Shown here in pieces: positions 2,325 to 56,305 of a stretch of DNA of 64,000 nucleotides. The position numbers and the translations under genes are program-made. Source of the DNA: Tricholomella constricta (Eukaryota > Basidiomycota > Agaricomycetes > Agaricales > Lyophyllaceae); NCBI GenBank assembly GCA_013368375.1, contig JAACJP010000030.1:434001-498000 (forward strand), in the 5' to 3' direction. Position 1 is the first letter of the stretch; every line of letters begins with the position of its first letter. The notes beneath the pieces were generated by a model. The model had not been told where the DNA came from. It ran no database searches and saw only the letters and a program-made list of their open reading frames with translations.

Positions 2325-4277
2325 CTAGGTCTTAAAGAATTCGAGGGCTTTATGGTCGGTAATGATGTGGATTTTATAGCCCACAAGTTTATCCTCCCAC
2401 TTAAGTAATGCTTCGAGAATAGCTAAGGTCTCGAGTTCATGCACAGCATAATTCTGCTGTGCATTAGTGAATTTTTTGGACATGAATCCAGCCGGCTGGG
2501 CTTGGATCCATGTAGGTCCTTGTCCATACATCGCACCGACGCCTGATTTGGAGGCGTCACAGATAATCCAAATTGGTTCGCCTGTCTTCGGTTGAATCGG
2601 CCGAATAATTGGTGTTGTGCAGCATATATGCTTTATCATTTCAAAGCATCGCTGATGAATTGGTCTCCAATAAAATGGCGACCCATTCTCGGTCATCGCC
2701 ATTAGTGGACCAGTGTATGCAGATATATCTGGGAGAAACTGTCCCAGATAGTTAACAAGTCCAACGAATCGTTGGATATCGTTGTAATTCCGTGGTATCC
2801 TCCAGTCACGGATCCGTGCCAGTTTGTCGGCGTCAGGGTGAATTCCTTGGTCGTCAATAATATGACCAAGGCAATCAACGCGATCCGAATACAATTCGCA
2901 TTTCTTCCATTTAAGGTAGAGTGATTGTTCGCGTAATCGTTCGAACACAACTCGCAAGTGGTCTTCATGTTCCTCAATAGAGTTCGAGAATATGAATATA
3001 TCGTCCAAGTATACATGCATGAACTTCCCAATGACGTCCCGAAAGATGGACGTCATTAATCGTTGAAATGTCGCGGGAGCATTACAGTCCCCGATTTGCA
3101 TGATGTTACTGATGTATGTTCCCGCTATCGTTGCGAAGGCGGTCTTATGTACATCTTTTTCAAGGATGCGTACTTGTTCATACGCATCCGTTAAGTCAAT
3201 TTTGGACCGTATTTTTCCCCTAGCGACATCTTCGCGAATAACTTCCTGGTCTGGCAAGGGCGTAACGTCCTTGATCGTGTTATCGTTACGCTGGCGTGCG
3301 TCCAAGGGTGTTCTCAGGGAGCCGTCTTTTTTCGGGATACATAGCAGCGGCGCTGCTTGCTTCACCGAACGAGGCTCCCACCATTTAGAATCCGTATACC
3401 GATTGACCTTCGCATAGAATTCCTCGCGAAGGGACATTGGGCACCTCGGCGCGTGGTACTGGTACTGTTTCTCATCATCGACGAGAGTAATCTCGTGATT
3501 GACTTCCCGCCAGGGTGGTAGCTGTTGTTTCGTACCACCCACCATATCTTCGAATTTGTCATGCCATTGCTGGCGAAGTCGTGGATAATCTTCCGCGGTA
3601 AGGCCTCCATTGGGTGCCTTACCTTTTCCGTTCACCGTTCTTGCAGCGCGAATGTGCGCTGTGTCTTTATTGCTAGGTTTAACATCAAACCTAGCTCGTA
3701 GTTTTACGAGAGCAAAGTCACTCTCATCCTTCACTGGTAACCGATACAACGGCCGTTTAGCCCGTTGTATATTCACCAGAAAATTCATTTCCGTTGGCTC
3801 CGATACTTCCTCAGGCCGTGGATTTCGGTACGCTTGTCCTCGCGTGCCTACATTTCTTCCTTCGTGAGCCCGCATTGACGCTATTACTGCGTTCCATTCT
3901 TGCGGCATCCGTGGGTCGAACATCCACTCATATTGTGGATGTGGATTTGGTCTATCCCAAAATGATCGATTACTCGTATTCGTATACGGCTCTGATTCCG
4001 TATCCTTGTCGGCCCCGCTCGTCTTACGCGCTTCATTATCGCGCTGATGTTCTTCGCATGGCTCGTCAACCTGTGCTCGTTCGTTCGAAGGCTCGTTTTT
4101 TGCCTTCTGCTGTCGTCGTTGGGGTTTTCTCTTCTTCGGAGGTGGCTTATCCCCCTCCTTAAGAGTTTCTTGAAACTCTTCCTCGGATAATAGAAGTGCT
4201 GGATGATCCTTCGGTAGGCTGTTTATCGGCCTACCCTCATTATCAGGATCATCGTCATCTTCTACTGTTACTTTTAG
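2325..4277 (-). CDS. Gypsy-A pol: reverse transcriptase and RNase H N-terminus
   Basis: The frame is open from the codon after the gag TGA (4,278-4,280) to a TAG at 2,325-2,327, so it extends well above the first ATG at 3,923. The N-terminal 120 codons are charged and low in complexity. RT motifs follow: IPKKDGSLRTPLDARQRN, KIDLTDAYEQVRI, the YLDD catalytic box in MHVYLDDIFIFS, then an RNase H start with the catalytic Asp in IWIICDASKSGVGA and ITDHKALEFF. The ORF stops two residues later (KT-stop), inside RNase H. The same TAG occurs in copy 2 at 47,652-47,654, so it is not a private mutation of this copy. Confidence 0.9.
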   Translation of the reverse strand, partial: LKVTVEDDDDPDNEGRPINSLPKDHPALLLSEEEFQETLKEGDKPPPKKRKPQRRQQKAKNEPSNERAQVDEPCEEHQRDNEARKTSGADKDTESEPYTNTSNRSFWDRPNPHPQYEWMFDPRMPQEWNAVIASMRAHEGRNVGTRGQAYRNPRPEEVSEPTEMNFLVNIQRAKRPLYRLPVKDESDFALVKLRARFDVKPSNKDTAHIRAARTVNGKGKAPNGGLTAEDYPRLRQQWHDKFEDMVGGTKQQLPPWREVNHEITLVDDEKQYQYHAPRCPMSLREEFYAKVNRYTDSKWWEPRSVKQAAPLLCIPKKDGSLRTPLDARQRNDNTIKDVTPLPDQEVIREDVARGKIRSKIDLTDAYEQVRILEKDVHKTAFATIAGTYISNIMQIGDCNAPATFQRLMTSIFRDVIGKFMHVYLDDIFIFSNSIEEHEDHLRVVFERLREQSLYLKWKKCELYSDRVDCLGHIIDDQGIHPDADKLARIRDWRIPRNYNDIQRFVGLVNYLGQFLPDISAYTGPLMAMTENGSPFYWRPIHQRCFEMIKHICCTTPIIRPIQPKTGEPIWIICDASKSGVGAMYGQGPTWIQAQPAGFMSKKFTNAQQNYAVHELETLAILEALLKWEDKLVGYKIHIITDHKALEFFKT

Positions 4278-4280
4278 TCA
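4213..4280 (-). promoter_or_regulatory. Candidate stop-codon readthrough site between Gypsy-A gag-PR and pol
   Basis: TGA (4,280-4,278) is followed by CTA AAA in copy 1 and CTC AAA in copy 3 (62,389-62,384). UGA-CUA is a known leaky context in several viral and cellular genes. Both copies can form a 7-bp hairpin about 43 nt downstream: arms GGTAGGC/GCCTACC at 4,213-4,235 in copy 1 and 62,322-62,344 in copy 3, with one loop change. Gag-PR and pol are in the same frame, so readthrough would give Gag-Pol without frameshifting. That the stop is used this way is inference. Confidence 0.45.
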
Positions 4281-6530
4281 TTCTCTTCGTTTCTCCAATG
4301 ACCGATGGCGTCTAGCTCGGCCATCGGTATCCTCCATTTTTACCTTAGTCGCTGGTATAGCGACTCCATTGACGACAACTTTGTCACGGTTAAAGTCCAG
4401 CACGACGTTATTTGCGCGCATAAACGGCGTGCCTATAATCACGTCGTATCGATCAAAGTTAGCAAGGTCCATGTAAACCTTGCCTTTAAACCCTGGCAGA
4501 GCGGCTTCCACCGTCGTACCAAAGTTTACTGTGGCCCGACTTCCTTTAGTCCCGAGCTGGAGGATTAATGGATCCTCCAGCGGAAATACTCGAATATCGG
4601 CCACTTGAGCGAATGACGGCGTAAGTCCGGTAGTTGTACTCCCGGAATCCCAAAGGGTCCAAGCCTCATGTCCACCTACGTTAATGTAGGTGACAAGGCA
4701 CTCCTTGTCCTTTATCGGAACTACGGGACGAGCAATTTTGTCCCTCCCCGTCCGCACTTTAACTTTGCGAACTGGTGGTTTATCATTGCGTTCTTCTGAC
4801 GCAATTACTTCTGTCATTGCAAACATACGCTCGGTCTCATCGTCCCGAGCATAGTATTCATTTTCGTAGACCTCCATGTCTACGAACTCATCGCCTTCGT
4901 CTTCATTGTCCGCCTCTGTATCATGGCGTCCATTGTCTCGTCCGTCCGGGTCCTCGGGAGACGTGTCTTCATCGTCCGCCTCACTTGCCGCGTCAGGTGC
5001 CGCTGTACGTGCGGCCCTTAGGAACGCTCGCTGTTTCTTGGGCTGTTTGCAATCTTTTGCAAAATGCCCTAGTTTTCCACAATTAAAGCACACTTCCCCC
5101 GGAGGGTGGTTGTGATGATCGTGGTTTTTAGGTTGATCGTAACGCGGACGATCTCCTGTCTTCATCGCTGGTTTTTCGACGTGGGGCTTTTGCTCTCCAC
5201 GTCCAGGTTGATCCTGATACGCTGGCTTGACATATGGCTTTTCATTTACTGCGCCATACACCCGTCGAGGCCTGTTGAAATTATTGTGTGGAGTGTTTAC
5301 TCGCCCCTCATCTGGTTTCCGCATTTGGCTCGGTTGACTTCGCTGAGCGGTTATGGTCCGCTCAAAGTAATCAGCCGTTTTCTGGGTGGCTTGAAGTGCT
5401 AGGCCCACCGCTAAGAACTCTTGGGCTGTATTGATTTCGGGTGATAGCCCGTCATCGAATAATGCCTTCCGCATATCGCGCGGAAGTGTTTTGAGAAATT
5501 TCTCCAGGAACGTCCAATCATCCGTTCTTGCTGCCATGTTCATGGCATGATCCACAAGGTCGTCATACAGACCTTGTATGCCTTTGCTCGCCGAATAGGT
5601 AACGGCGTTAAAGTCGTTACGAGCATCCTGCATGGTTGAAGGCAGCACGAACCGATCGTACAGCCCTAGTATGACGTCTTCAAACGTCCAGGACTGCTTT
5701 TCGCGGTTCACATGGATAACATGGCGATTGTACCATTTCCGAGCTTCACCATCAAGGAACTCGGATGTTATCAGAACGCGCTCTTGGTCGCGTTCTGCTC
5801 CTCCAAACTGGCTCACGGCTAGCATCACGACAAGGCTGGCTAGCCATTCTTCCAATTCGCCAAACTTGGCACTTCCACTATAAGTGCCTACGGACTTTGA
5901 GTCCGCACGACGAGATTTCATACCATCAGGGAGCGATAGGCGTACAGCCAGTCGCTCGTGTATCAGTTGATGCAACCGTTCGTGCATCTTAGTTTTATGC
6001 TGCTCTCCAGCAGCATGTATTCCGTCCGCAATTGATTGACTCCTGCGAATCGGGTCAGGCATTGAGTAGCCTCGACTTTGAAATCGAGGCTGAGCATGTG
6101 AAGTGGGTTCACTTATACGAACCCGCATGTCTTGACGGCCGTTAGCCGTCGCCGTCGTATTATGTTTTCCGACGGCCCCATTTCCCAGTCCACCATCCGA
6201 ACCTTGAGTTTGCGAGGCCCATTGCCTCGCCATCTCATCTACGGGCATATGTCCTTCGAAGACGACTCCTTGATCATCATAATTCGTGAACTTGCTCCGT
6301 GATAAATCAGCGTTTCTCAAACGCTGATATGCGACTCGGTTGTTCCAATCTTTCGCTAATGGAACACGGCCATCCTTCGCATCCATAGGTACTTGAATAG
6401 CTGGCGCGCTTTCGTCGCCAGCTGCTTGCGTGGTTGTATACTTACGTTCCGTGGGTGGGTCTAACGTAGACTCACTAACAGGGGCCCATTTGGATCCCTG
6501 TGGTTGCGCAAGATGCTCTTCACGAGTCAT
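4278..6530 (-). CDS. Gypsy-A gag and aspartic protease
   Basis: A 750-residue ORF. Residues of roughly 220-390 form a retrotransposon capsid-like region (GELEEWLASLVVML, WTFEDVILGLYDRFV). A CCHC zinc knuckle, CFNCGKLGHFAKDC, sits near residues 479-492 and would bind the element RNA. An acidic linker is followed by a retropepsin domain with DSGSTTTGL near residue 628 and a later VIIGTPFM. The ORF ends in TGA directly followed by CTA, and pol continues in the same frame. Upstream of the ATG at 6,530 the frame stays open to the TGA at 6,591, so the ATG may not be the only start. Confidence 0.88.
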   Translation of the reverse strand: MTREEHLAQPQGSKWAPVSESTLDPPTERKYTTTQAAGDESAPAIQVPMDAKDGRVPLAKDWNNRVAYQRLRNADLSRSKFTNYDDQGVVFEGHMPVDEMARQWASQTQGSDGGLGNGAVGKHNTTATANGRQDMRVRISEPTSHAQPRFQSRGYSMPDPIRRSQSIADGIHAAGEQHKTKMHERLHQLIHERLAVRLSLPDGMKSRRADSKSVGTYSGSAKFGELEEWLASLVVMLAVSQFGGAERDQERVLITSEFLDGEARKWYNRHVIHVNREKQSWTFEDVILGLYDRFVLPSTMQDARNDFNAVTYSASKGIQGLYDDLVDHAMNMAARTDDWTFLEKFLKTLPRDMRKALFDDGLSPEINTAQEFLAVGLALQATQKTADYFERTITAQRSQPSQMRKPDEGRVNTPHNNFNRPRRVYGAVNEKPYVKPAYQDQPGRGEQKPHVEKPAMKTGDRPRYDQPKNHDHHNHPPGEVCFNCGKLGHFAKDCKQPKKQRAFLRAARTAAPDAASEADDEDTSPEDPDGRDNGRHDTEADNEDEGDEFVDMEVYENEYYARDDETERMFAMTEVIASEERNDKPPVRKVKVRTGRDKIARPVVPIKDKECLVTYINVGGHEAWTLWDSGSTTTGLTPSFAQVADIRVFPLEDPLILQLGTKGSRATVNFGTTVEAALPGFKGKVYMDLANFDRYDVIIGTPFMRANNVVLDFNRDKVVVNGVAIPATKVKMEDTDGRARRHRSLEKRRE

Positions 6531-7442: not shown

Positions 7443-8009
7443 TAGAAAGCAAGGTAGCTTAAAAAAATGTAACGGGGTTACAGAATTTGGGGACCTTGTT
7501 GTTCACACTAGACGTAAGCTTGACAAGTCTGTCGATTGCTACGTATAGGTGTACAAGGTTGTTTATACTTAATTAATGTAATGAATTAAATAGGCAACAC
7601 CAGAAGGTGTTGCCAAACAATAGCGTAATCGTCTCGATAAGATACGATTAGATAACCAAGATTAGATAAGATAGTGGGCGTCCTTACACGAAAGTACTTA
7701 CATGTTCTCCCCCACCCTCGCCTCACTCACCCCCCCCCCCCCAGTAATCTAGAACCATAGCGGCACACGACACTTGACCTCACTGACACACCAAACGCTA
7801 AACCAGCTCCATCTCGGTCTGAGTGCACAGTCGTGCTGCTCGCTTCACCACCCACCCGCTCTGCGGGACATCGTCGCGACAAAACGACTCCAGCAAAGCC
7901 CCGTGAGCCCGATCTACAACGGTGTTGGATACGCCGACCCGCCCTTTCTCCGCTTAACGGGGGGGTGGGATTCCGGGACTCCCGTAGCATGTACATACCT
8001 GTGTACCAT
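7443..8009. other. Gypsy-A 5' region and unresolved flank
   Basis: No gene is seen. 7,590-7,612 holds a hairpin (GGCAACACC/GGTGTTGCC around AGAA) just inside the LTR edge at about 7,623, where a primer-binding site would lie. Homology to the copy 3 LTR ends near 7,690. A run of 13 or more C at about 7,730-7,742 follows and may be a breakpoint or an assembly weak point. 7,743-8,004 is anonymous, GC-rich flank of the Gypsy-B insertion. ACCAT at 8,005-8,009 is the left target-site duplication. Confidence 0.5.
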
Positions 8010-8367
8010 TGTCACGAACGTCCCTAACGACCACCCCTAAAGTCACACCCACTACGCTTTCCCACGCACGTCCGCCGTACATATATGACACCACTTTCTT
8101 TTCGGACACCTTACCTCGATATTACCATTTGTTACGACTAGTTCCCGTTCCCGTTTCTTATTCTCTCTTACTCTCTCGGTTTACTCAGCTCCGCAATTGT
8201 ATCACTTGTGCTCAATTCGTTCGAATAAGCTCCGGTGAACATCCTCGTCAACGCTCACGACCTCCGATTACCCTATCGGAGCCCGTCTTCCTTGACGACG
8301 TCAGGCCTGTCCGCTTCGGTGGTCTCGGAATAACTCCGCAACCAGCGTGCTACGCAAGGTCCTAACA
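8010..8367 (+). repeat. Gypsy-B copy 1, 5' LTR
   Basis: 358 bp, starts TGTCACGAAC and ends CCTAACA. It contains an ATATATGA box near 8,090 that could serve as the promoter of the genomic RNA. Compared with the 3' LTR it keeps CG at all four differing positions, so the 3' LTR has lost CpG sites and this one has not. Confidence 0.95.
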
Positions 8368-8396: not shown

Positions 8397-11231
8397 ATGT
8401 CCTCGACGATAGTGGAGCCTAACACAACCATCCGCTATCAAAACTTCGAAGGTCCCTCCTTCACTCAAAGGAGACCTTCACCACCACCCTTCGAAACCTC
8501 CCCTGCCTCAACAGGACCTCCGATGCAAGGGACTTTCGGATCCAACAGGTCCAGGTTGGAACACCAGATCTTCCAACCTGGCCAACATGAGGGGGATTTT
8601 TCCTCAGTCAGTCAGGATTCACGACGACCCCTACCCCGAACCCCCTCAAACGTATTCAACCCCTCTTACCAACTCGCCACCCCCAACTATCCCCCCTTAC
8701 CACCATCCGCAACGACCTCCGGACCTCCGCTTTCAAGTAACCACACTCCCGGGTCGTACTACGAAAGGTTGAGGCACCCGGAGATGTTCCAGAGGAGGGA
8801 TAGGGCTCGAGAGGAGGGACAGGGACAGTTCGCTCGTCAACAAAACCCCTTTCTACACGGTTCAGACCACGAAAGGATACTCTACGAACTCCGCATGACG
8901 CGAGAAGAGTTTTCACGACAAGCGCACGAGCTCCTAGTCGAAACCATGGGGATGGATCATCAACCCCGAACACCGGAACAATGGGCCAACCTCGTGTTGT
9001 CGACCATGCAACTGCACGAAGCCCATCGATTACCCCCACAACTGACGGTGTTGCTACAAATGGGGGGAAACGAAAGAAGGTTATGCACTCTGGCTGGAGA
9101 AATCCAGACGTCCAACGAGGGAAGAAGATTCTCCGACCCCCAAAGCGCGGGACGTTCCTTCCACATGCCAATTCAGGAGCCCGTTCCCTCCAGAATCGAA
9201 ACTAGATTCGAAGAACCTCCACGAGCGACAAGCACGGTCAATACGCAGACAGCTTCGCCTCTACTCAGGAGGATGAACCAAGGGAATGCACCCCCCAGCC
9301 AAGAAGGGTTCGAACCCACCGTCACACCAGGGACAGACGCTCGAAGAGCTCCGACGTTCGGGTTCTGGGGAGCCCACAACTTACAAAGAATCCCCGAAGA
9401 GAACCCCCCTGTCGAAGGACCGTTTTCCAGGCCAAATTCGGGTTTTCAGGGCCCACAGAGGACCTTTGCAAACCAAGAAGGAGTACCTCCGAGGGAACCT
9501 GAGAACATTCCCCTACCTCCGTCGGAACGGGGAATCCCAACGCCACTGTCGTACGCCCACAGCTACGAACTACGTGAAGAAAACTCGGAAAGAAGAGAGG
9601 GAGCACCCCCTAGGGCACGAGAAGACTGGCGCCAAACACCACCTCATCTGGCAAATCAGAACAGGAGGTCACCGCAAGGCCCACGCCCAATCTCCCCAAG
9701 AGAACGACGTGGAATCGGAGCGGACCCCGGCCCCGGTCAAAACGTAAACATCCTCGACGGAAGGCAAGGGACCCAACAACAATTCCCCCAGTTCGAACAA
9801 TACAGAACTGGCTACAACCCCGGACCAGCCCCACCCATACCCGGCGGACGACCGAACCCCCAGTACAACGGACCACCTCCACAGCCCCAACCACCTCCGG
9901 GATCTTTGGGACCACCTACCCCGAGAGGAACTCAATGGGGAAACGGCCCCCGAGGACCAGGAGGGGGAGGAGGAGGTTATTGGGGAAACGGCCCCGGAGG
10001 AACAGGAGGTCCTGGAGGAGGGGGAGGTCACGGAGGATACGGACCACCACAAGGACCAGGAGGCCCGGGAGGCCACGGAGGAGGAGGAGGAGGAGGCCCA
10101 CCCGGAAATCCGGGAGGGGGCCAATTCGCAAACCCTCAACGACCCCCACCTCCACCGCAACAACTCTTAGGCCCAAACCAAAACCTGACCCCGGAACAGT
10201 ACCGACACCTCCTAAACCTGGAATCGAAAATCGACATCAGGAAACCGGACCCCTTCACTGGAAAAGAACCGAGGAGATGGAAAACCTTCGTCACGGAATG
10301 CCTAGTAATGTTTCAAGCCAAGGCGATCACCTACGAACAGGATCACCTGAAGGTGTCATTCGCGAGCTCCTACTTAAAGGACGGAGCTATGGACTACTTT
10401 CGGCTGCAACTCACGTACAACCCCCAACACCCAATGTTCACGAATTGGGAAGGATTCGTACACGAATTAGGATCACGCTTCGGAATACCGAACTCGAGAG
10501 TGGAAGCCGAGAACAACATTTCGCGACTGAAAATGAAGGAATGGGAAAAGTTCACAGCATTCATCATCAAGTTCGAACAAGAAGCGTACGAAACAGGCTG
10601 GAACTGGGTAGCACTACAGTTCACACTCCGGAAAGCGCTCCCCCAGCGAATCCTTAACGTCCTGGCCATCGCACCAAGCCCCGAAACCTACGAAGGTTAC
10701 CGAGATCTGGTCACTCAAATCGATCGGAGGTACTGGGAACATCGCATAGAAAATCCAGAGTCCTACAAACCCCTCTGGGCGAATAACGCGAACACCCCCA
10801 ACACCTCCGCACGACCTCCGATGGGACCTTCAGCCGGACCCGCAAGCCGCACGACGCCGCAAACGGCTCAAGGGAACAGGAACGCACGCTTGAACGCCGA
10901 AAGTCACGATCAGGACCCGGACTCAGGTAAGGAAGGTAAGGCGCAAGACCAAGAAATCGCATGGGATGACGAAGAGGCACTACAAGCCAACAACTTCGGG
11001 TTCAAGAAGTCAACGCGCCCCTGGATGAAGATCGATGAAGACGTAAAGCAACAACGAATTCGAGACAAGGCCTGCATCCTATGCGGTGACCTGGAACACT
11101 GGATGCGCGACTGCCCAACAGCAAACGCCATGGGCAGAGCCACCTACCTCATCGGCGACGACATCTTCGAATTCCATCACAAGACAGAAGAGGGAAACGC
11201 GGGGGCGATTCAGGACTTACCCGGGCTCTGA
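8397..11231 (+). CDS. Gypsy-B gag
   Basis: A 944-residue Gag that would form the virus-like particle and bind element RNA. The ATG is 29 nt past the 5' LTR. Residues 1-600 are rich in Pro, Gly, Gln and Arg, with a Gly/Pro-rich stretch around 10,000-10,150. Residues of about 615-790 form a capsid-like domain (RRWKTFVTECLVMFQ, FASSYLKDGAMDYF). A CCHC zinc knuckle, CILCGDLEHWMRDC, spans residues 893-906. The ORF ends in TGA at 11,229-11,231, inside a hairpin that is part of a predicted -1 frameshift signal. This Gag is much longer than typical Gypsy Gag because of the N-terminal low-complexity half. Confidence 0.92.
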   Translation: MSSTIVEPNTTIRYQNFEGPSFTQRRPSPPPFETSPASTGPPMQGTFGSNRSRLEHQIFQPGQHEGDFSSVSQDSRRPLPRTPSNVFNPSYQLATPNYPPLPPSATTSGPPLSSNHTPGSYYERLRHPEMFQRRDRAREEGQGQFARQQNPFLHGSDHERILYELRMTREEFSRQAHELLVETMGMDHQPRTPEQWANLVLSTMQLHEAHRLPPQLTVLLQMGGNERRLCTLAGEIQTSNEGRRFSDPQSAGRSFHMPIQEPVPSRIETRFEEPPRATSTVNTQTASPLLRRMNQGNAPPSQEGFEPTVTPGTDARRAPTFGFWGAHNLQRIPEENPPVEGPFSRPNSGFQGPQRTFANQEGVPPREPENIPLPPSERGIPTPLSYAHSYELREENSERREGAPPRAREDWRQTPPHLANQNRRSPQGPRPISPRERRGIGADPGPGQNVNILDGRQGTQQQFPQFEQYRTGYNPGPAPPIPGGRPNPQYNGPPPQPQPPPGSLGPPTPRGTQWGNGPRGPGGGGGGYWGNGPGGTGGPGGGGGHGGYGPPQGPGGPGGHGGGGGGGPPGNPGGGQFANPQRPPPPPQQLLGPNQNLTPEQYRHLLNLESKIDIRKPDPFTGKEPRRWKTFVTECLVMFQAKAITYEQDHLKVSFASSYLKDGAMDYFRLQLTYNPQHPMFTNWEGFVHELGSRFGIPNSRVEAENNISRLKMKEWEKFTAFIIKFEQEAYETGWNWVALQFTLRKALPQRILNVLAIAPSPETYEGYRDLVTQIDRRYWEHRIENPESYKPLWANNANTPNTSARPPMGPSAGPASRTTPQTAQGNRNARLNAESHDQDPDSGKEGKAQDQEIAWDDEEALQANNFGFKKSTRPWMKIDEDVKQQRIRDKACILCGDLEHWMRDCPTANAMGRATYLIGDDIFEFHHKTEEGNAGAIQDLPGL

Positions 11232-11236: not shown

Positions 11237-14200
11237 GAAGACCTAAAACCGGACCTTGACACTAAACTACGCGCAACGGCATTATCGACAACGGACACCC
11301 GCACAGTAACTCTCTCCTCCCATTTGTCACTGGCATTCCTAATACACCTCACGCCAAACGGAGGAGGAGAAGACCCCGAAAACACGCTCATTGACAGCGG
11401 AGCTACCGACAACTTCATGGACTCCGTCATGGCGACATCACGTGGGCTCCACCTTGAGGAGCTCAACCCCCCAATAAACCTCTGCCTATTCGACGGAGAA
11501 CTCTCCGCATCAGGCAAAATCACACACTATACCACCAACGAAGTCAAATTCAGTGACGGCACCACTCAGAGGATAAGATTCCTCATAACGAAACTCCACG
11601 AGACAGCGACGATAGTACTGGGACTACCATGGCTGAAGGAGGTCAATCCCCACATAAATTGGAAAGACCTCTGCATCACGCTACGACGGGGGTCAAACGG
11701 CAAAATCGAAGGATCACTACCGGAGCTCCGAAGGAAAAAGGAAGTCGCTCCAACAACAACAGGCACAGGAGCTCAACGCTTACCCTCGCGGTCGGCTCGC
11801 TCCTTCACGATCGAAGTACAGTTGGAGGGATCTGCAACGCGTCTACGGGCACTTATTGATAGTGGGGCGGCGGGCAACTTCATAACAAAATCCTCGTGTA
11901 CGAAGCCGGAACCTCTCGCCAACCCCATGACCCTACAACTGTTCGACGGAAACCCCAGCAGAGGCGGAGCCATTTCACACCATAGTCCCGAAACGATCAA
12001 ACTCGAGAACGGACTAGAGTATAAGGTCGACCTCCTCATAACACAGTTACATCCAGCCACACCATTAGTGCTCGGATTACCTTGGTTACGGGAAGCAAAT
12101 CCGGACATCGACTGGCGGGAAATGTCCATGACCATGGAACAAGGAGCAGGACTAGCCGCGATATCGCTTTCCCAGAAGACGCAATGGGGAACCGTGACCC
12201 TTGAGGAGGAGGAAGACGTCGAAGCTCCGAAACCAGCCAACCCCCTTTCGGAAAAACAACCCCTCCTCAGGGACCTCCTGGACGACAACAATGATCAGAA
12301 CGACACCTCCAGCGACAACATGAAGGAGGAAGACACCCGCCCAAACACCAACGAACCCCAAGAGGAAGTACCAACACCGACAACCGAGTCGCCAGAGGAG
12401 GTAACGGGACGGAAACGCACCCGAAAACCACCTCCACCCAACTACTTCCCTCCAAACGTTCCGAGGTCCAAATTCAAACCCCACCCCAAACGGAAACCCG
12501 CAACATCCCCAACGACAGAAACACAGGAAGAAGAGGAAACTGACCCGGAAACGGAGGTCGAAGACGAAACCAGAGAGGGAGAAGAGGATGTTGAAACACA
12601 AAGCATCCGCCTGATCGGAGCGGCGCCATTCGCGAACCTCATCAGGGACGGAGCCACAGCGTTCCAACTACACATCTCCCCCACCGAACAGGAAGAACAC
12701 CTCCATGCCAATAACACCTCCGACGACGAACCCAAGCAACCAAAGACAGAAAAGGAAATCTTCGAGGAAGTCGTACCTCCGGAGTACAGGGACTTCGAAG
12801 ACGTATTCTCAGCGGGCAAAGCGAAAACCATCCCCCCACACCGACCTTACGATCACACAGTGGAACTCGACGAAAACACTACCCCTCCTTTCGGAAAGAT
12901 ATACAACATGTCCGAACTGGAGTTGAAAGCATTGAAGGATTACATCGACGAGATGCTCGGTAAAGGGTTCATCCGACCTTCGAGTTCGTCAGCGGGAGCT
13001 CCGGTACTGTTCGCAAAGAAGAAGGACGGATCACTCCGGCTATGCGTGGACTATAGAGGACTAAATCGGATCACCAAGAAGAACCGTTACCCTCTACCCC
13101 TGATCGGAGACCTCATAGACCAACTTCAAAAAGCAAAAGTATACTCGAAGATCGACCTCCGAGTGGGCTACAACAACGTCCGCATAGCTCCGGGACACGA
13201 ATGGAAGACAGCCTTCCGCACTCGCTATGGACTTTTCGAATACCTGGTAATGCCCTTCGGCATGACAAACTCACCCGCGACGTTCCAACACTTCATGAAC
13301 GACATCTTTCACGACATGAACGACGTGTTCGTAGTGATCTATCTCGACGACATTCTGGTTTTCTCGGAGACCTTAGAGGAACATCACGGACACGTTCGGA
13401 AGGTCCTCGAGAGGCTCCGGAAACACAACCTTCATGCGAAACCGGAGAAATGTACGTTTCACACTACGGAGATCGAATATCTAGGCGTCATCGTATCCCC
13501 CGGCGGAGTAAAGATGGATCCAGGAAAAGTCGACGTGATCCGGAAGTGGCCTAGACCGACGAAGGTCAAAGAACTTCAATCCTTCCTAGGCTTTGCAAAC
13601 TTCTATCGGCAGTTTATCGACAATTACTCGGGCATAACGAAGAGGTTAAACAAACTCACGCAAAAGGACACAATCTGGAAATGGGATTCCGAATGCGAAG
13701 GAGTCTTCGAGCTATTGAAGAAAGCATTCTCCTCCGCACCCATCCTACGACACTTCGATCCTCAACTACCGGTGATACTAGAGTGCGATGCCTCCGACTT
13801 CGCCATAGCGGGGATCATCTCCCAATTTGACGAGACATCACAAGACTTACGTCCGGTCGCCTTCTACGCGAGAACTATGATAGACGCGGAGCTCAACTAC
13901 GACATCTATGACAAGGAGCTCCTAGCAATCGTGGAAGCGTTTAAGCAATGGAGGGCCTACCTAGAGGGATCTCCCCACCGCATTCAAGTGTACTCCGACC
14001 ACAACAACCTACAGTACTTCTCCACGACCAAACAACTCAGTCGCAGACAAGCACGATGGTCGGAATGCCTGGCGAACTTCGACTTCCAGATAAACTATCG
14101 ACCCGGAAGACTGGGAGCGAAGCCAGATGCCCTTACGCGAAGAGCGGACGTGTATCCAAAGAAGGGTATCGAGCAGGATCACAACTCCTTCAACAACCGC

Positions 14201-15697
14201 ATCATCATACCCCCCGAACGATTGAACGCGGCCCTAATACTGAACGAGGAGCTCCTACTAAACAATGTCCGGAACGCACCCCGAGACGATTTCTTCGAAA
14301 GGCATGCACCCAAACCCGGAGAAGAGACCTCCGCATTCTCCCTATCCGATGATCACAAACTACTCCTTCGCGACGGAAGAATCTATGTACCAGACCATTC
14401 CAGATTACGACTCGACATCCTACAGCAACACCATGATCACAAACTGCGCGGACATCCAGGGATCAGAAAGACCACACAACTCATCATGAGGACTTATTTC
14501 TGGCCCGGATTACGGAAGGAGGTCACTCGATACGTCCGAAGCTGTCATACCTGTAAAAGAGCGAAGGTCCCACGCCATAGCCCATACGGATTATTGAAAC
14601 CACTCCAGATTGGGCGAAGGGCGTGGGCCTCCATATCCATGGACCACATCGTAGAATTACCGGAATCGGATGGGTACGACGCCATACTGGTCGTAGTATG
14701 CCGCCTCACCAAGCAAGGCATCTTCATACCCTGTCACACAACGGACACAGCAAAGGAACTTGCTCAGCTATTCTTGGAACATGTCTTCTCCAAGCACGGA
14801 CTGCCCGATGACATCATCTCCGACAGAGGCACCCTCTTCGTCTCCCGTTTCTGGAGCTCGCTATGTAAAGCCCTGGACATCAAATCGAACCTTTCGACCG
14901 CGTATCACCCGGAGACCGACGGCCAGACAGAATGAGTAAATCAGACACTGGAACAATACCTCCGGATGTACGTGAACTACCTCCAGACCAACTGGCGAAC
15001 ACAGCTTCCTCTGGCGGAATTCACGTATAACAATACGACCCATTCGACCACGGGAGTTTCCCCTTTCTTTGCGAACAAGGGCTATCACCCCCGCTTGACA
15101 ATCTCTATAAACGATATACCGGCGAAAGAAGCCCAGGAGGTAGCCGTAGACCTCCGGACCCTCCAGGACTACCTCCGCAAAGAAATAGAGATCGCAAACG
15201 AAGCCTACAAACGATTTGCGAACAAGAAGCGGGACCCTACACCAGACTGGGCTGTAGGAACGGAGGTATGGCTCGACTGCCGGAACATCAAAACGAAACG
15301 CCCCTCCAAAAAGCTAGACCACCGGAGACTGGGCCCCTTCAAAATCTTGCAGAAGATTTCCAGCCATGCGTATTGACTGGAACTACCTCCGACACTGAAA
15401 GGGATTCACAACGTATTCCACGTCAAGTTACTCGAGAAGCACGAACACGAGAATTTCCCCGGACGATCAAAACCACCTCCGCAGACGATCAAAGTCGAGG
15501 GCGAAGAACACTACAAAGTGGGACAAATCCTAGATTCCCGAACACGAGGGAAACACGTCCTCTACTTGGTACGATGGGAAGGGTACGGCCCCGAAGACGA
15601 TACCTGGGAACCAGCGGAGAATATAGAGGGAGCAAAAGACATGGCCCTCGAATTCCACCGACTTTTCCCAAGAAAGCCACGGGACCCCACGATTTAA
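11198..15697 (+). CDS. Gypsy-B pol, interrupted by two TGA codons
   Basis: Read in the -1 frame relative to gag; the frame is open upstream of the gag stop. In order: two retropepsin domains (DSGA at 11,393 and 11,858), an acidic linker, RT (VDYRGLNRITKKNRYPLP, YLDD at 13,340-13,351), RNase H (ILECDASDFAIAG), integrase with HHCC and DDE (SMDHIVEL, ISDRGTLF, DGQTE) and a C-terminal chromodomain (VLYLVRWEGYGPEDDTWEP). TGA at 14,933-14,935 falls directly after the catalytic Glu. A second TGA is at 15,374-15,376. Copy 2 reads CAA and AGA there, so both are probably CGA to TGA changes. True stop is TAA at 15,695. Confidence 0.92.
11380..12160 (+). other. Tandem duplicated retropepsin domains in Gypsy-B pol
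   Basis: Two homologous units follow one another: IDSGATDNF ... IVLGLPWLKEVNPHINW (about 11,385-11,660) and IDSGAAGNF ... LVLGLPWLREANPDIDW (about 11,850-12,120). Each has the DSGA catalytic motif and the hydrophobic-GLPWL segment. Both DSGA motifs are kept in copy 2 (51,442 and 51,907). Retropepsins normally work as homodimers of one such domain; two in one chain could pair within the molecule. That last point is inference. Confidence 0.85.
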
Positions 15698-15901: not shown

Positions 15902-17898
15902 CTACTCGACGCGACGATGCTTGGAGGGACCTGCACTGGCAGAGGAACCGTCCTCGCGCCCAACCCCCACCTCCCCAACCACCCCTACCTCCAGAGGAAG
16001 CATCGACGCGATGTCCTGCTCGTCGTCGGCGATCAATTGAGACTGAGACACGAACCCCGCAAGGGCATCTTCATGAGTGAGAGATGGACGATGAAGAGCA
16101 AGGAAATGCTCGAAGGCGGGAAAAGGGGACTCAGGATCGATGGGAGGGCGAAAAAGCTCGCGGAGAGAATGCTGCTCAAGAATCTGGTGAGCGGCGTCGA
16201 CGATACCCCGGACCGGCGACGCCTCCATCTCGACGAGGGCGCGACGCAGGGCGCCATCCGCAACAAACATATCGGATGCGAAAGCAACACGCGCAAGCTC
16301 AAGGGCTACAACAAATTCCGGAGGTGAAAAAAGAGAACGAAAGAAGACAAAAGAAAGACTCACCATCGGTGCGAACGCGAAGGTCCAAGGCATGACCACG
16401 CCAATAGTCCCGAACCTCCTGGAGATGGACGACGTGCCCCTTCAGACCCGCAACCTCATCCTCAAGACCCGCAACCTCCATCCGCAGATCCTCGACCTCG
16501 GCGTCACGATCGACGTCGACGACCTCCACGGCACTCGATGTCTGCGCCTGCAGATGAAGGAAACGTTCACGCTCGTCGGCGAGTTCGGCTAGGACTCCAC
16601 GAAAACGACCCTTGTTGCGTTCGCCCTCGGCCTGGAGACGCTCTACCTGGAGGGACAAAGCCTGCGCACGCGCGACCTCCTGGTCGTAGAGGCGCTGAAG
16701 ACGGAGGTGCTCCTCAGGCGAAGGAGCAAGAAGGGCAGGAGCAGCGGGGGGGGACGAAATCAACATAGCAGGAGGGGAAGCCTGGTGCAGAACCGGTGAG
16801 GGAGAGACCGATTCAGACGAACTCTTTAAAAAGAGAGGCTCCGAGGGCCCGACGATGGGAGAATCCGGAGAAGCGGCACGCATGGCGGCCCCAAGACGAC
16901 GAACAGGGAAAGGGGAAACCGAGCTATCGGAGGGGGGAGGAGAATAACCAGGCATAGGCGAAGGGCGCGCCTCCGGAACAGACAAGCGCGCACCCCCACG
17001 ACCGACAGGCACAGACCTTCGTCCCTGACCTCGCGTACCACGGAAAATAGCACGAGGAGGGGGAGCAGGAGGAAGTGAAACGGCACCAGTCCCTACAACG
17101 GACAAAGAGGCGGCGGGAAGAGGAGGCGGGATTGGCAAACGCAGGGCGCGACGGATGCTGGTAAAAGACATCGCAACGCCAGGGCGGGAGAAAGTAAAAC
17201 CCTCGGCGCGAGAGCGAAGCCACTCCAACAGAATTCCCAACTGCCTAGCTGCCACCTCTAGGCCATGGTCCAACGAAAGCGAGCACAGGGAATGCGCCGC
17301 ACGACACTCAACACAGGGCAGGGTCCCACGAAGACGAACCTCCTGAAATCGACAAGACAGCCGACGCGTCCGACACCGATCACACTAACGAAGACCCCGA
17401 AAAGGAATCAGCTGAAACGCTGGACTCGATCGCAGAAGAAGGGCAACATACCGGCTCATGCGCCTCACACCATGCCAAGGAGGGAGGAACCCGCACAGCG
17501 GTATGCAACACCTCCGCCAAAATTGCATCAGTGAAGAGGGGCCCCCACGACAACGAAGTCGCCGCTGGACGCGACACAGGGTCACTAGCAAACTCGAAAT
17601 CGGCCTCGGGAGTGGTGGAACGAGGGCGACAGATCTGTTGGGATCGAATGGGCAGGCGGATGATCAGACGAGGGACAGGAGGTGGGAGAGGAACGGGGGA
17701 CGACTCGGGGACCGCCCCGACACTCCCATCGAGAAGGGTGGCAATCCCAGGGAGAGAGGGCGCCGGGGAAACGGGTTGAGGCGCGTCTAAGGACGCGACG
17801 CGCGACCGATCTTCGTCGATCAAAGGCGCCACGCCCGGATCTCGCAAAGCGGGGGCATTAGGAGGAGGAGACGCGACACGGGGCATAGGAGGCGACAT
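15902..17898 (-). CDS. Antisense spliced gene inside Gypsy-B: Zn2Cys6-type cluster plus coiled coil (copy 1)
   Basis: A three-exon gene opposite to the element: exons 17,898-17,452, 17,384-16,364 and 16,305-15,902. Intron 1 (67 nt) is GTATGT...TTAG; intron 2 (58 nt) is GTGAGT...TTGTAG. Phases agree, giving 623 residues. Exon 1 is Pro/Ser-rich. Exon 2 opens with six cysteines at residues 150, 153, 160, 173, 176 and 183 in C-x2-C-x6-C-x12-C-x2-C-x6-C spacing, matching fungal Zn2Cys6 clusters. A Pro/Ser-rich linker and a coiled coil at about 373-476 (RAQALSLQVERLQAEGE) follow; exon 3 ends in a basic SKHRRVE tail. It sits between pol and the 3' LTR, where copy 2 has the same gene with the same introns. 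DNA binding is inferred from spacing; an RNA- or protein-binding zinc fold is possible. Confidence 0.75.
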
Positions 17899-18102
17899 GA
17901 GGTCGACAGAATTGAAACAGAAGAAGAAAAACGACCAAGTTCTTCTCCTTTTTGATCTCCGAGATCCTCAAAACACCCACAAGGACCCACAACCGAGGCC
18001 CTCACGTGCCCCTCACGTGACCGCGCGCGCGCACCAAAAAGGAAAAACAAACGCCACACTCCCCGTATCCGAACATTTTTCCGCGTCTCAGTGGCTCGAC
18101 GC
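17899..18102. other. Region upstream of the antisense gene, next to the 3' LTR
   Basis: About 200 bp between the antisense start codon and the 3' LTR. It holds a CA/GC alternating run (cgcgcgcgca near 18,022). It would contain the 5' UTR and perhaps the promoter of the antisense gene; the LTR itself is another candidate promoter. No clear TATA box is seen on the minus strand. Confidence 0.35.
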
Positions 18103-18117
18103 TTGAGGAGGGGGTAA
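18103..18117 (+). promoter_or_regulatory. Gypsy-B polypurine tract
   Basis: TTGAGGAGGGGG followed by TAA directly precedes the 3' LTR. The same run precedes the 3' LTR of copy 2 (56,511-56,520). Polypurine tracts prime plus-strand DNA synthesis in LTR elements. Confidence 0.7.
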
Positions 18118-18475
18118 TGTCACGAACATCCCTAATGACCACCCCTAAAGTCACACCCACTACACTTTCCCACGCACGTCCGCCGTACATATATGACACC
18201 ACTTTCTTTTCGGACACCTTACCTCGATATTACCATTTGTTACGACTAGTTCCCGTTCCCGTTTCTTATTCTCTCTTACTCTCTCGGTTTACTCAGCTCT
18301 GCAATTGTATCACTTGTGCTCAATTCGTTCGAATAAGCTCCGGTGAACATCCTCGTCAACGCTCACGACCTCCGATTACCCTATCGGAGCCCGTCTTCCT
18401 TGACGACGTCAGGCCTGTCCGCTTCGGTGGTCTCGGAATAACTCCGCAACCAGCGTGCTACGCAAGGTCCTAACA
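18118..18475 (+). repeat. Gypsy-B copy 1, 3' LTR
   Basis: 358 bp, matching the 5' LTR at 354 positions by direct reading. The four differences are CG to CA or TG changes, three within the first 60 bp and one near 18,300. It is followed by the target duplication ACCAT (18,476-18,480). A purine run (GAGGAGGGGG, 18,105-18,114) precedes it and is the likely polypurine tract. Confidence 0.95.
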
Positions 18476-18480
18476 ACCAT

Positions 18481-22968: not shown

Positions 22969-25900
22969 CTACTTACGTCTTCGATTCAGCCCCCAGCAAA
23001 TTGTCAATGTCTCTTTGTCAAGTCCAAATGTTCCTGATGGATTTTTGTACATAGCAAGGTGGCAGATGATATGACGCAGTTCAATAATGAAATTATAAGC
23101 TGATAATTCTGTATCCACAACTTTTGCTTGCAGATTTGAGCATGGTTGAAACATATATGGTGTGTGCCCTGCCTGAGCTGGTGAAAGAGGCCTATGTTGT
23201 CGAATCAAAAGGAATGTCTGCCAAACTCCCTCGAGCGGAAATTTCCAGATTGCTTCAATGTATCCTGTCTCTACTGTGCCTGCTGGAGCTCTTGGAACGT
23301 AGAACTGTATATGACTATTTCCGTTGTGACTGTCATTCTGACTGTACGTGCAGTCTTCAAAATTTATTTGGCGTGGCTGTTGCACCAAAGGTGGAAGAAT
23401 GATTGTACCCTGTGTATATGGAGTCATCTCATATGCAGAGTGATAATCATGTCCAGTCAAGTTCAAATGTTGAAGAAGCATCATATAGTAGCGCAAATCC
23501 AGCCGGTCTGCATTTGCATGAGCCCGTATGATGTCTGCATCACTCAAGATATTGCTTGTCTCTGCTGGGTGCTCCGACATAAGAATCTTAGCTAGTTCAG
23601 CTATAGTGCTGCTCTCAGAGCTACTGTCATGGAGCAGTGCCTCCAAGCGCCCGCGACGAGCCGACTGGCGAAGCATTGTTAACTCCATATGATTTTTATA
23701 ATACAAGTATCAATAGTCAGGAAACATCTTAATAGACTGGTAACTTACAAAGCCTGCGATTTGTTTTAATTCTTCCAAAATCACCATTCATTCTTTCACC
23801 AGGAAACTCACTCAGTAACGATAAAGGGCCCCAGAATTTTAGCAGATCCCTATTGTGCATTGCATAGTGGTGATTGGGCATTGAGCGAAACCCAGGAAAG
23901 AGCTGCTGCATTGATGATCGATACTTGACATAATGATCCAAGTATGCATCTGCTTCTGCATTTGTAACAGAATATGCTGCAATGATATTTGTAGAACAGA
24001 CCAAGTCACAAAAATTCTCAAGTAGCTGTTGCTTGTTATTGCTGTGATTCCACCAGAGCTTGGGTACAATGAGAGGAAAGATGACAGAAAAAAGAACCAG
24101 CAGTTCGTGAGCTTTAAGTTTCCCATGGCTAGCTTCACCAAGGTTAGTTGGTGGCCGCTGAACCCATGTGGGTAACTGGACATCACGGATACAGCCTCTG
24201 ATTGCCTCCAACTCTGTATCAGAGAAATTGAACACATGCTGAGAATTGGTAGAATCCTCTTCCTCACTATCTTCGTCATCATCAGGGGTCAAGAAAACGA
24301 AGTTTGAATTCTGAGTAGGTGTTCCAGGAGTATTAGCATTACTTTCTTGACTGTCCAAGTCCCAAACAAAATCATCATCAACGTTCATTTGGTTCAAGTC
24401 ATCAGTAAGCCCTGATGTACTATGGCTACCTTCAGAGGCAGTGTCAGATACATTAGATACATTCTCTTCCTGTTCCATGTCTGCTATTGCTTTTAGAGCT
24501 GCTTTTGTGCGTCCAATACCCCAAAGCACACGAAGATGATATTGAAGAATACCCTCTAGGAAATTATGCATAAATCCAAGAAGAACATGACGAACTGGAT
24601 CCCAGTAAGGCATATCATGCAGAGGTGTCCAACGAACTCCAGTCTCTCAAGCTAAAGATTCTTTAGCCTTGACAGTTACAAGGTTCCGCCATTCTTCAGC
24701 TTGAGCTCGCACTTCTGCTCCTCTTCTCATTTCCCAATTGAACATGTTCAAATTCTCAACGTCTTTCTTGTTTAATTTGCAGAAGGAGCAGAAAAGAGCA
24801 GCAGAAGCTGATAAGTATCCAGCAACTTTACGTATAGCTTGCAAGTCTGCAATAAGTGGAATGATTCTAGCAGCAACTGAAGCACCATCAGGATGATGAT
24901 GAGTTGAAATTCTTTTTCCAGGAAGGTCCCATTCCATGATCATCTCTCGAACTGAATGCAGAACATGAGAGATTGTCCAAACATTTGGTGCATGAGGTGC
25001 TGGTGTCATGCCAATTATAAATGTATTCTCAGGTCGAAATCTGATAGACAGAGGCAGATTTAGGCAGTACAAGATAATAGCACCACAAGATACTACTTGG
25101 CCTGCAATTTTATTGGTAAATGGATTGAACCAATCAATGTATACAGCAAAGACTAGGTGGTAACAAGATCGTAGAAATCCTCGAAGTGAATGCCAAGCTG
25201 GACTGTCATGGATGTCATACATCCGATCAGGAATAGCAGGATTCTGAAATTTTGCAAATGTTTGCCGCAAGCCATCATCAATCTGAGCACGCTTCAAGAA
25301 GAAAGTGAGCCATGACTCAAATGATTGACTAGTATAAAGGCATTTAGGAACTCGTTGTAGCCCTTCATGAGTGCGGTGCTCAATAAACAGATCAGCACCA
25401 CAGATTTTAGACCTTGGTGACCGCCTCCAGTTACACTGAGCAGGAGTTCCATCAGCAGTGTAATGCTTGAAGCACTGAGGGCAACATATAACACGCAGAA
25501 TCTCAGGCTCAAACTGGCTATGAGAATATACAGTACGAATATCAGATGGAATGCCCAAGCTCTCAGAGATTGCTATATTGACCCCAGAAGAAGCAAGCGC
25601 AGTTTGAATCAGCCCAAGCATAGTCAAGATAATGAATCGGAACGCTTTCAGCAGAATGTTAGCAGTATCTCGACTAGCACCTGCATGGAGAGAGAGCCAA
25701 GCGACGACAAGACAGCATAACTCAAATACCGGTGCAACAACTAATAGGAGTTGAAGTTTGAACAAAGTAAATGGAGTAAAGACATGAAACTCACCTTCCG
25801 TTAGATCCAAGGAAGCTTGAGGTGGTCGGGGCACATTGGTGGTAACGTAAGGAGTAGCTAATACAGTGTGACTAACTGAGGTTTCACCCCTGTTGCGCAA

Positions 25901-26011
25901 TTCATGCGCTCTGCGAGTCTGAGGAGAGACCTTGCGACCAGGTACAGTGCGCCCATGATCTGTACATGTTGTCTTGATACAGCTACTGCAGGTGCAGATA
26001 ACCTTGGCCAT
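22969..26011 (-). pseudogene. Tnp2/CACTA-like transposase gene, interrupted
   Basis: Minus-strand ORFs 26,011-24,647, 24,613-23,729 and 23,706-22,969. A 54-nt intron (25,794-25,741, GTGAGT...TTAG) lies in the first. Motifs such as WFNPFTNKIAGQ, LNLPLSIRFRPENTFI and YWDPVRHVLLGFMHNFLEG fit the Tnp2-like proteins abundant in Agaricomycetes. The N-terminus has a CTCSSC cysteine group. TGA at 24,649-24,647 joins the first two ORFs in frame and is probably CGA to TGA. Consensus donors (GTAAGT) end the second ORF near 23,742 and the third near 22,975; their acceptors are not clear. The family assignment is from memory of conserved strings, so alternatives within DDE-type fungal transposases remain. 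Confidence 0.6.
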
Positions 26012-49776: not shown

Positions 49777-50263
49777 AACTAGGTAGCGCTACAGTTCACG
49801 CTCAGAAAAGCGCTACCTCCGCGAATCCTCAATGTACTGGCCATCGCACCAAGCCCCGAAACCTATGAAGGCTACAGAGGCCTGGTCACTCAAATCGACT
49901 GGAGGTACTGGGAAAATCGCGTAGAAAATCCAGAGGCCTACAAACCCCTCTGGGCGAATAACGCGAACGCCTCTAACACCTCTACACGACCTCTGATGGG
50001 ACCTTCAGCGGGACCCGCACACCGCACGACACCGGAAACAACTAAAGACAATAGGAACGCACGCTTGAACGCTGAAAGTCATGATCCGGACCCGGACACA
50101 GGTAAGGAAGGTAAGGCGCAGGATCAAGAAATTGCATGGGACGATGAGGAAGCCCTACAAGCCAACAACTTTGGGTTCAAGAAATCAACATGCCCCTGGG
50201 TGAAGATCACCGAAGACGTAAAGCAACAAAGGATTCGGGACAAGACCTGCATCCTATGTGGCA

Positions 50264-54325: not shown

Positions 54326-56305
54326 CTACTCGACGCGACGACATTTAGAAGGACCCGCACCAGAAGAGGAACCATCCCCATGATCGACCCCCACCTCCCC
54401 ATCCAACTTTTCCCCCAAGGGACGCATTGATCCAATGTCCTGCTTGTTGTCAGCAATCAGCTGGGACCGGGTACAAACTCCGCAAGAGCGCCTTCGCAGG
54501 TGAGTGAGGTGCGGTGAAGGGCAAGGAAGTGTTCGAACGTGGGAAAGGGAACCTCAGGATTGACGGGGGGGCGGAAAAGCTCGAGGAGCAAGTGCCGCTC
54601 AAGAATCTTGTGGGCGCCATCGATGATATTGCGGACCGGTGACGCCTCCAGCTCGATGAGGGCGTGACGCAGAGCACCATCCGTGATATACATGTCGGAC
54701 GTGAAGGCGGTACGCACAAGGTCGAGGGCTACAAAAAGTTTCAGAAAGGAGAAAGAGAGAACAAGGGGAATCGAAGAAAACTCACCGTCGACGCGAATGC
54801 GGACGTCCAAGGCGTGACCACGCCAATGATCCCTAACCTCCTGAAGGTGGACAACGTGCTCCTGCAAACCAGCAACCTCATCCTGAAGAACTGATACCTC
54901 CATCCGAAGGTCCTCAACCTCCGCGTCATGATTGACGTCTACGACCTCCGCAGTCTGCGCCTGCAGATGAAGGAAGCGTTCGCGTTCATCGGCGAAGTCG
55001 GACAATACGCCACGGAGATGGGCCTTGGCACGCTGACCCTCGACCTGGAGAAGCTTGACTTGAATAGAAAGGGCCTGTGCGCGCGCAACCTCCTGTTCAT
55101 AGAGGCGTTGAAGACGAAGGTGCTCCTCAGACGAGGGAACAGAGGGAACTGGGGCAGCGGGAGGAGTCAAAATCAACATGGCGGGGGGGGAAGGATGCAA
55201 AACTGGTGAAGGAGAGACTGAGGCGGACGACCCCTTTAAAAAGAGAGGCTCCGAAGGACCGACGATGGGGGAACCCGGAGACTCGGTGCGCACAACGGCC
55301 CCAAGACGATGAACGGGGAAAGGCAAAACTGAACTATCGCAGGAGGAGGGAGAAGGGCTAGGTATAGGCGAAGAGCGCACCTCCTGAACGGACAAGCGCG
55401 CACCCCTATGGCCAACAGGCACAGACTTTCGACCATGGCCTCACGTACTGCGAAAAATGGCACGAGGTGGGGGAGCACGAGGAAGAGAGACAGCGCCAGA
55501 CCCTTCAACGGATGTGGAAACGGCGGGAAGGGGAGGTGGGAGCGGCAAACGTAAGGCGCGACGGATACTGGCGAAGGACATCACAACACCAGTGCGAGAA
55601 AAAGAAAACCCTTCAGTGCGAGTTCAAAGCCACGCCAAGGGGATGCCCAACTGCCTAGCCGCCACTTCTAGACCATGGGCTAACAAAAGTGAGCATAGGG
55701 AATGCGCCGCACGGCAATCGACACAGGGCAGGGTCCCGCGAAGACGGACCTCCTGAAACTGACAAGACAGCTGACGCTCCCGACAATGATCACACTAACG
55801 AAGACCCCAAAATGGAATCAACACTTGATCGCAGAAGGAGGGCCACACTTACTGGTGCATGCGCCTCACACCACGCCAAGGAGGGAGGAACCCGCACAGC
55901 GGTACGCAAGACCTCCACCAACATCTCATCCATCAAAAGGGACCCCCAAGACAACGAGATCGCCGCCGGACACGACACAGGATCGCTAGCTGGTTCGAAT
56001 TTGACCTCAGGAGTAGAGAAACAAGGGCACCGGATCTGTCGAGATTGAACTGGCAGACAAATGACCAGACGGTGATTGGGAAGTGAGGGAGGAGCAGGAG
56101 AAGACTCGGGGACCGCCCTGACACTCTCATCGACAAGTGTGGCGATCCCAGGGAGAGAGGACGCTGGGAAAACGGGTCGGGGTACGTCCAGGAACGCCAC
56201 ATGCGCCCAATCTTCGACGGACAAATGTGCCAACTGGGAATTGCGCAAAGCTTGGCCATGGTCAACGGAGGCGGGGGCCGTAATATCTGGGTTGAAGGAC
56301 GACAT
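54326..56305 (-). pseudogene. Antisense Zn2Cys6/coiled-coil gene of Gypsy-B, copy 2, decayed
   Basis: Same layout as copy 1: exons 56,305-55,853, 55,794-54,786 and 54,728-54,326. Intron 1 (58 nt) has donor GTAAGT, intron 2 (57 nt) donor GTGAGT; both acceptors are at the same places. All six cysteines keep the C-x2-C-x6-C-x12-C-x2-C-x6-C spacing. The coiled coil (RAQALSIQVKLLQVEGQ) is kept. Damage: two in-frame TGA codons in exon 2 (about 55,617 and 55,442) where copy 1 has CGC and CGA, and a 1-nt frameshift near 54,460. The protein N-terminus differs more than the rest. Confidence 0.75.

Follow-up and report, generated by a model that had tools for sequence, protein, structure and literature searches.

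The DNA analysed here (hereafter the window) is a stretch of 64,000 nucleotides (nt) from Tricholomella constricta. It contains a Ty3/gypsy chromovirus that carries an additional gene in antisense orientation, between pol and the 3' long terminal repeat (LTR). This antisense gene is a genuine protein-coding gene of the element and is under purifying selection. Its three minus-strand exons join into a spliced frame of 1872 nt, corresponding to 623 codons and a stop codon. An earlier note made from the sequence of the window had given the coordinates of the exons and introns, the consensus donors, matching phases and the length of 623 residues, all of which were reproduced, with phases 0 and 1 (Table 1). 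The UniRef protein P0001 from T. constricta is 97% identical to the window protein over the full length. Its public gene model likewise comprises 623 amino acids (aa), so the annotators picked the same splicing there, as a prediction only.

We searched the 44.1-Mb T. constricta assembly for further copies. Four subfamilies, A (that of the window), B, C and D, have both introns and six cysteines in common. The protein ends with PSKHRRVE in the window copy (type A) and with PSKRRRIE in types B and C. All 15 aligned copies, which represent the four subfamilies, retain GT-AG splice sites and phases at both introns. Counted in the alignment, intron 1 has a length of 67 nt in type A, 58 nt in B, 69 nt in C and 75 nt in D. 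Intron lengths vary by non-multiples of three, and the exons of intact copies differ by multiples of three only.

Between subfamilies the ratio of non-synonymous to synonymous substitution rates (dN/dS) of the whole gene is 0.24–0.31. Broken down by region, comparisons between types gave 0.08–0.17 for the block around the cysteine cluster (residues 105–228), 0.09–0.16 for the C-terminal domain, 0.16–0.31 for the coiled coil, 0.26–0.52 for the N-terminal part, 0.35–0.60 for a proline-serine region and 0.32–0.84 for the tail. The pol gene is under tighter constraint between types, with values of 0.02–0.16 in reverse transcriptase (RT), RNase H-integrase and chromodomain and 0.27 in the protease region. 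In a six-frame control with five subfamily pairs, the gene frame alone was free of stops. Four other frames showed dN/dS values of 0.93–1.79, and the mirror frame had 0.35–0.44 but contained 18–20 stops. This control and the conserved splice sites rule out a chance open reading frame (ORF). A single pair inside subfamily A points in the opposite direction, with a dN/dS of 0.74 on 30 differences.

The host element and its copies

The earlier note had described the host element as a chromovirus. This was borne out by the LTRs, the target-site duplication, the polypurine tract, the order protease, RT, RNase H, integrase and a chromodomain match (Chromo) of 54.6 bits, with pol interrupted twice. 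The two LTRs are 98.9% identical (4 mismatches in 358 nt, no gaps). The integrase match (rve, 28.3 bits) is under its cut-off of 32.6 bits. Two in-frame stops in pol are located at 14933–14935 and 15374–15376, and the chromodomain lies beyond both. Because of these stops the window copy is probably non-autonomous; its antisense gene is nonetheless intact.

Among the matches listed, the antisense gene was found at 102 merged places on 49 contigs. Most rows with a lone exon were excluded, and a copy in pieces may have been counted double, which is why this number is best read as about 100. The 39 loci that we fetched are the best matches and therefore biased towards well-kept copies. The gene adjoins a pol tail in 38 of them (the remaining one, L035, ends with its contig) and an LTR likewise in 38 (exception L026). 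Starting from pol, 39 of the 40 best-scoring among 111 candidate pol tails are accompanied by a listed gene in opposite orientation no more than 4 kb away. The exceptional pol tail (C24:573243) is without a listed gene and has a leader block 2.8 kb away. A mechanical intactness test was passed by 31 of the 39 loci and failed by L016, L021, L025, L028, L029, L032, L034 and L035, in the case of L025 only through the mechanical placement of the end of exon 1. The spliced antisense gene proposed in the earlier note is thus upheld by an open frame in 31 of 39 copies and by the GT-AG sites described above. Its further suggestion, that the gene is the element's own and not trapped, agrees with the position beside the pol tail and with purifying selection.

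Homolog searches beyond the species (7989, 1141 and 7995 scored candidates) returned the same two T. constricta proteins only, and 48 pattern matches in viral contigs included no relative. The public protein P0002 (locus L016) is a frame-shifted antisense copy fused to a Ty1/copia RT fragment (RVT_2, 48 bits), so its public name misleads.

Table 1. Positions of the antisense gene, its host element and associated features in the window.
Feature	Position	Strand	Remarks
Antisense gene, exon 1	17452..17898	-	447 nt; ATG at 17898
Antisense gene, intron 1	17385..17451	-	67 nt; GTATGT...AG; phase 0
Antisense gene, exon 2	16364..17384	-	1021 nt; encodes the Zn2Cys6-like cluster and the greater part of the coiled coil
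Antisense gene, intron 2	16306..16363	-	58 nt; GTGAGT...AG; phase 1
Antisense gene, exon 3	15902..16305	-	404 nt; conserved C-terminal domain up to residue 590
Most conserved block	17148..17586	-	residues 105-228; spans intron 1; dN/dS 0.08-0.17
Zn2Cys6-like cluster	17283..17384	-	residues 150-183
Predicted coiled coil	16277..16718	-	residues 372-499; spans intron 2; block pLDDT 57-77
Leader, antisense ATG to 3' LTR	17899..18117	-	219 nt; presumed antisense promoter and 5' untranslated region
Near-palindromic conserved block GATCTCCGAGATCCTC	17954..17969	.	type C differs in the first base pair of the palindrome
Two CACGTG boxes (18003, 18014)	18003..18019	.	both kept in 17 of 18 leader rows shown
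Target-site duplication ACCAT, 5' side	8005..8009	.	5 bp
5' LTR	8010..8367	+	358 nt
gag ORF	8397..11231	+	944 aa; DUF4939, zf-CCHC and Retrotrans_gag matches weak, all below cut-off
pol ORF to first in-frame stop	11324..14935	+	protease, RT, RNase H, integrase
pol continuation, same frame	14966..15376	+	SH3_Tf2-1 match; closes at second in-frame stop
pol continuation, same frame, chromodomain	15377..15694	+	PF00385, 54.6 bits
Polypurine tract GAGGAGGGGGTAA adjoining 3' LTR	18105..18117	+	
3' LTR	18118..18475	+	U3 about 18118-18218; near-invariant block 18219-18234; then R-U5 (presumed boundary)
Target-site duplication ACCAT, 3' side	18476..18480	.	
Second, decayed gene copy (type B)	54329..56305	-	locus L032; in-frame stops and frame shift

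The window has a second element of this lineage, a damaged one, at positions 49456–56946. It holds the L032 gene, and its pol residues 589–1141 were not found. Pieces of another gypsy family are located at 1170–6530 (minus strand), 46130–48699 (minus strand) and 61515–62186. The pol of this family is 34–44% identical to the chromovirus pol, and its gag ORF (4278–6530) has a CCHC knuckle (31.7 bits). Two repeats of 91–92% identity connect 46 kb and 61 kb of the window. Long minus-strand ORFs at 22969–26011 look, by impression, like a large DNA-transposon transposase.

Cysteine cluster and coiled coil

The antisense protein contains six cysteines in the arrangement C-x2-C-x6-C-x12-C-x2-C-x6-C. 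As stated in the earlier note, this spacing is exact; none of 20,000 shuffled versions of the protein reproduced it, and it is present in 39 of 39 fetched copies (the best matches). The general spacing of Zn2Cys6 domains is C-x2-C-x6-C-x5..12-C-x2-C-x6..8-C, which the cluster satisfies with the x12 loop at the long end. A seventh invariant cysteine is located at residue 144. All six cysteines are encoded by exon 2, whose first codon is that of the first cysteine. Splicing, which the earlier note had credited with bringing the cluster into frame, is therefore needed to join the cluster to the start codon, but it does not assemble the cluster itself. The coiled coil that the note had placed after the cluster is indeed predicted, as two AlphaFold helices (residues 372–431 and 442–499) with a predicted local distance difference test (pLDDT) score of 57–77 over the block. 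It does not follow directly, however, but starts about 190 residues past the cluster.

In GAL4-type Zn2Cys6 factors the six-cysteine spacing, a basic segment and a coiled coil are found in one protein, as here. The window protein differs from them by a score below the Pfam cut-off, the x12 loop, the distance of about 190 residues to the coil and the seventh conserved cysteine, and it is encoded by a retrotransposon.

Several results speak against a GAL4-type cluster. The earlier note had suggested a search with the Pfam profile Zn_clus (PF00172) and a structure prediction of the cluster as checks. The profile reached 14.3 bits, below its gathering cut-off of 21 bits, and every type scanned was sub-threshold as well (P0001 15.5 bits, type D 11.5 bits). 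In the alignment, residues 144–164 (Cys144 and the first cysteine triplet) fall on the second half of the model, which does not match the six cysteines as assigned. A profile search of the PDB with the antisense protein yielded no matches. The AlphaFold model, calculated from two sequences, has a mean pLDDT of 44.5, with values below 50 on the cluster; when a 64-residue piece was modelled, one long helix ran across the last three cysteines. A zinc-cluster fold did not appear in these models. A Foldseek search with the low-confidence model gave 254 matches, none of them at an E-value of 0.001 or better, with coiled-coil proteins on top. Owing to the sub-threshold Pfam scores and the models without a zinc-cluster fold we keep the label "Zn2Cys6-like", and the cluster is assigned to the Zn2Cys6 family PF00172 provisionally.

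Leader, long terminal repeats and mosaic structure

The leader upstream of the antisense start codon contains several conserved motifs. A GCGTC...GACGC inverted repeat is present in 17 of 18 rows shown. The TCTCCGAGATCCTC blocks take the palindromic form GATCTCCGAGATC in the majority of rows of types A, B and D, and this form is absent from C rows. The 16-mer GATCTCCGAGATCCTC occurs 90 times in the genome (reversed control: 0), and in 80 cases a listed place of the gene is no further than 1.5 kb away. Its abundance is as expected from copying of the element and hence no proof of function. The remaining ten copies (one each on C1, C3, C5, C10, C20, C24, C110 and C111 and two on C30) have no listed gene nearby and may represent unlisted or remnant elements. 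In the LTR, a CTCCGAT...ATCGGAG inverted repeat is found in the window type only; other LTR types are without it. Inspection of leader and U3 by eye revealed no paired CGG site that is conserved, which counts against a regulator acting on these sequences.

We grouped the 39 LTRs by thresholds of our own. Each of the six U3 groups goes with one gene type; two of these groups consist of one locus each, L026 and L032, which are damaged or divergent. Gene types are mixed in three of the eight R-U5 groups: A, B and C occur together in one, A, B and D in another. The same R-U5 type can occur in elements that differ in U3 and antisense gene, including pairs at 0–2% divergence. This sharing is likely a trace of strand transfer between co-packaged RNAs. 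About 28 nt upstream of the switch point (about 18219) there is, by eye, a TATA-like CATATATG. This location of the switch would fit the U3/R border and a strand transfer from one RNA to a different one.

Gene type is likewise reflected in the pol tail (98–99% in A, 94–96% in intact-looking B loci, 89–91% in C and D). Between A and C, synonymous divergence in pol is 0.06 in the protease, 0.10 in RT, 0.54 in RNase H-integrase and 0.28 and 0.47 further on; in the antisense gene it is 0.61. This climb within pol places the breakpoints in pol and excludes an exchange of the antisense gene by itself on a gag-pol held in common. Since the pol tail tracks the gene type too, linkage alone would suffice to explain the match of U3 and gene, to the detriment of a regulatory explanation, and coevolution of U3 and regulator was dropped as a proven relationship. 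That each subfamily answers mainly to its own GAL4-type regulator through a matching U3 is a tentative idea, which we consider doubtful.

Proposed function and related systems

Based on these results we propose, with about an even chance of being right, that the antisense protein acts in the nucleus as a DNA-binding accessory protein and regulates the element, most likely through the element's own U3 and leader. Transcription would start from a promoter of its own in the 219-nt leader beside the 3' LTR. The protein would enter the nucleus via its basic C-terminal end and dimerise through the coiled coil. The cysteine cluster would then contact DNA, most likely the U3 or leader of the element itself, and the bound protein would tune transcription or chromatin of the element.

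It is conceivable, although we rather doubt it, that the protein acts as an accessory nuclear or chromatin protein of the complementary DNA complex, i.e. in nuclear entry, site choice or integration and not in transcription. The basic C-terminal end and the predicted coil would suit such a role, the available text of the review PMC7264820 proposes similar roles for antisense proteins of plant elements, and the presence of a chromodomain means that targeting already matters to the element. The Zn2Cys6-like cluster, however, suggests sequence-specific DNA contact more than transport. Also unlikely is a zinc module for contacts with RNA or protein (e.g. Gag or genomic RNA) in place of a GAL4-type DNA-binding domain. 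The sub-threshold Pfam score with its half-model alignment, the long loop, the invariant Cys144 and the helix over the last cysteine triplet are in line with this explanation, whereas in its exact spacing and basic CDRCRxRR segment the cluster resembles Zn2Cys6 domains, and P0001 bears the name "Zn(2)-C6 fungal-type domain" in UniRef. We regard it as very unlikely that the antisense transcript itself acts, by way of double-stranded RNA, silencing or dampening of the sense RNA, with the protein being secondary. Sense and antisense RNAs would overlap by geometry and the available text of PMC7264820 puts forward a role of this kind for antisense transcripts, but selection is on the protein, as judged by dN/dS, the stop-free frame, exon length changes in threes and the splice sites. 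Least credible is a captured host gene that is carried passively and does nothing for the element: its introns and fungal-type domain would suggest a host origin, but a trapped bystander was rejected on the dN/dS of 0.24–0.31 across four subfamilies, most fetched copies are intact, we recognised no free-standing host gene among the places listed for this genome, and none of 22 Zn_clus matches coincides with a listed place of the gene.

HBZ of HTLV-1 is a deltaretroviral antisense gene near the 3' LTR that encodes a nuclear regulatory product of the basic leucine zipper (bZIP) type. The gene described here has the same orientation and a similar place. In contrast to HBZ, which belongs to an animal virus, the antisense protein has no bZIP among its Pfam matches up to an E-value of 5, and no homology is claimed. 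PMC11963269 likewise refers to such deltaretroviral genes. Boty-like Ty3/gypsy elements of Botrytis cinerea with an antisense gene, brtn, were reportedly described by Zhao et al. in 2011 (Virology).

The available parts of PMC8365987, PMC4227169 and PMC5987419 describe brtn and a chromodomain in gag-pol for these elements, and the review PMC7264820, in its available text, sites the antisense gene of Boty between pol and the 3' LTR. As described there, Boty resembles the window element as a fungal gypsy element with a gag-pol chromodomain and an extra antisense gene; it differs by its ascomycete host, and the likeness concerns the described layout. The same text of the review names Grande, RIRE2, Retand, PvRetro13 and fungal Boty as elements with antisense genes. 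Such genes recur in fungi, plants and retroviruses, with a function that is unknown outside retroviruses (PMC7264820). Those of maize Grande (gene23) and rice RIRE2 lie between pol and the 3' LTR, as here, and gene23 is served by a separate promoter upstream of it and encodes a nuclear protein; both are plant elements whose proteins are without clear database similarity according to this text. For the antisense TRP28 proteins of Retand, the available text of PMC11963269 reports predicted DNA binding and a proposed regulatory role, and it does not mention introns. Retand belongs to a non-chromovirus plant lineage and has a TRP28 domain and no Zn2Cys6. Plant antisense proteins of nuclear or DNA-binding-like character are thus precedents for the proposed regulator. 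A promoter of its own, as expected of the aORF-3R class (antisense additional ORF) of LTR retrotransposons, is presumed for the gene of the window, whose leader is conserved.

The earlier note knew of no Gypsy element with this layout. This does not hold, as Boty (brtn), Grande, RIRE2 and Retand have it in the sources cited above. A fungal gypsy element with an antisense zinc-cluster gene was not found in our searches of the open literature, and the term "antisense" is absent from the available text of PMC3248453 and PMC3411680 (both on fungal LTR elements) and of PMC3158057. While the layout is already known, the zinc-cluster-like domain and the two preserved introns are unusual.

The introns persist because antisense splice signals are absent from the genomic RNA that is reverse transcribed; only in antisense can an intron-bearing gene live inside a retroelement. 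Since the protein has a module of DNA-binding-like character, and the genome has four subfamilies that have diverged and dozens of copies that are intact, self-regulation is directly testable. If each subfamily indeed answers to its own regulator, an LTR retrotransposon family would encode its own GAL4-type factor, with gag-pol and R-U5 being freely exchanged among the subfamilies.
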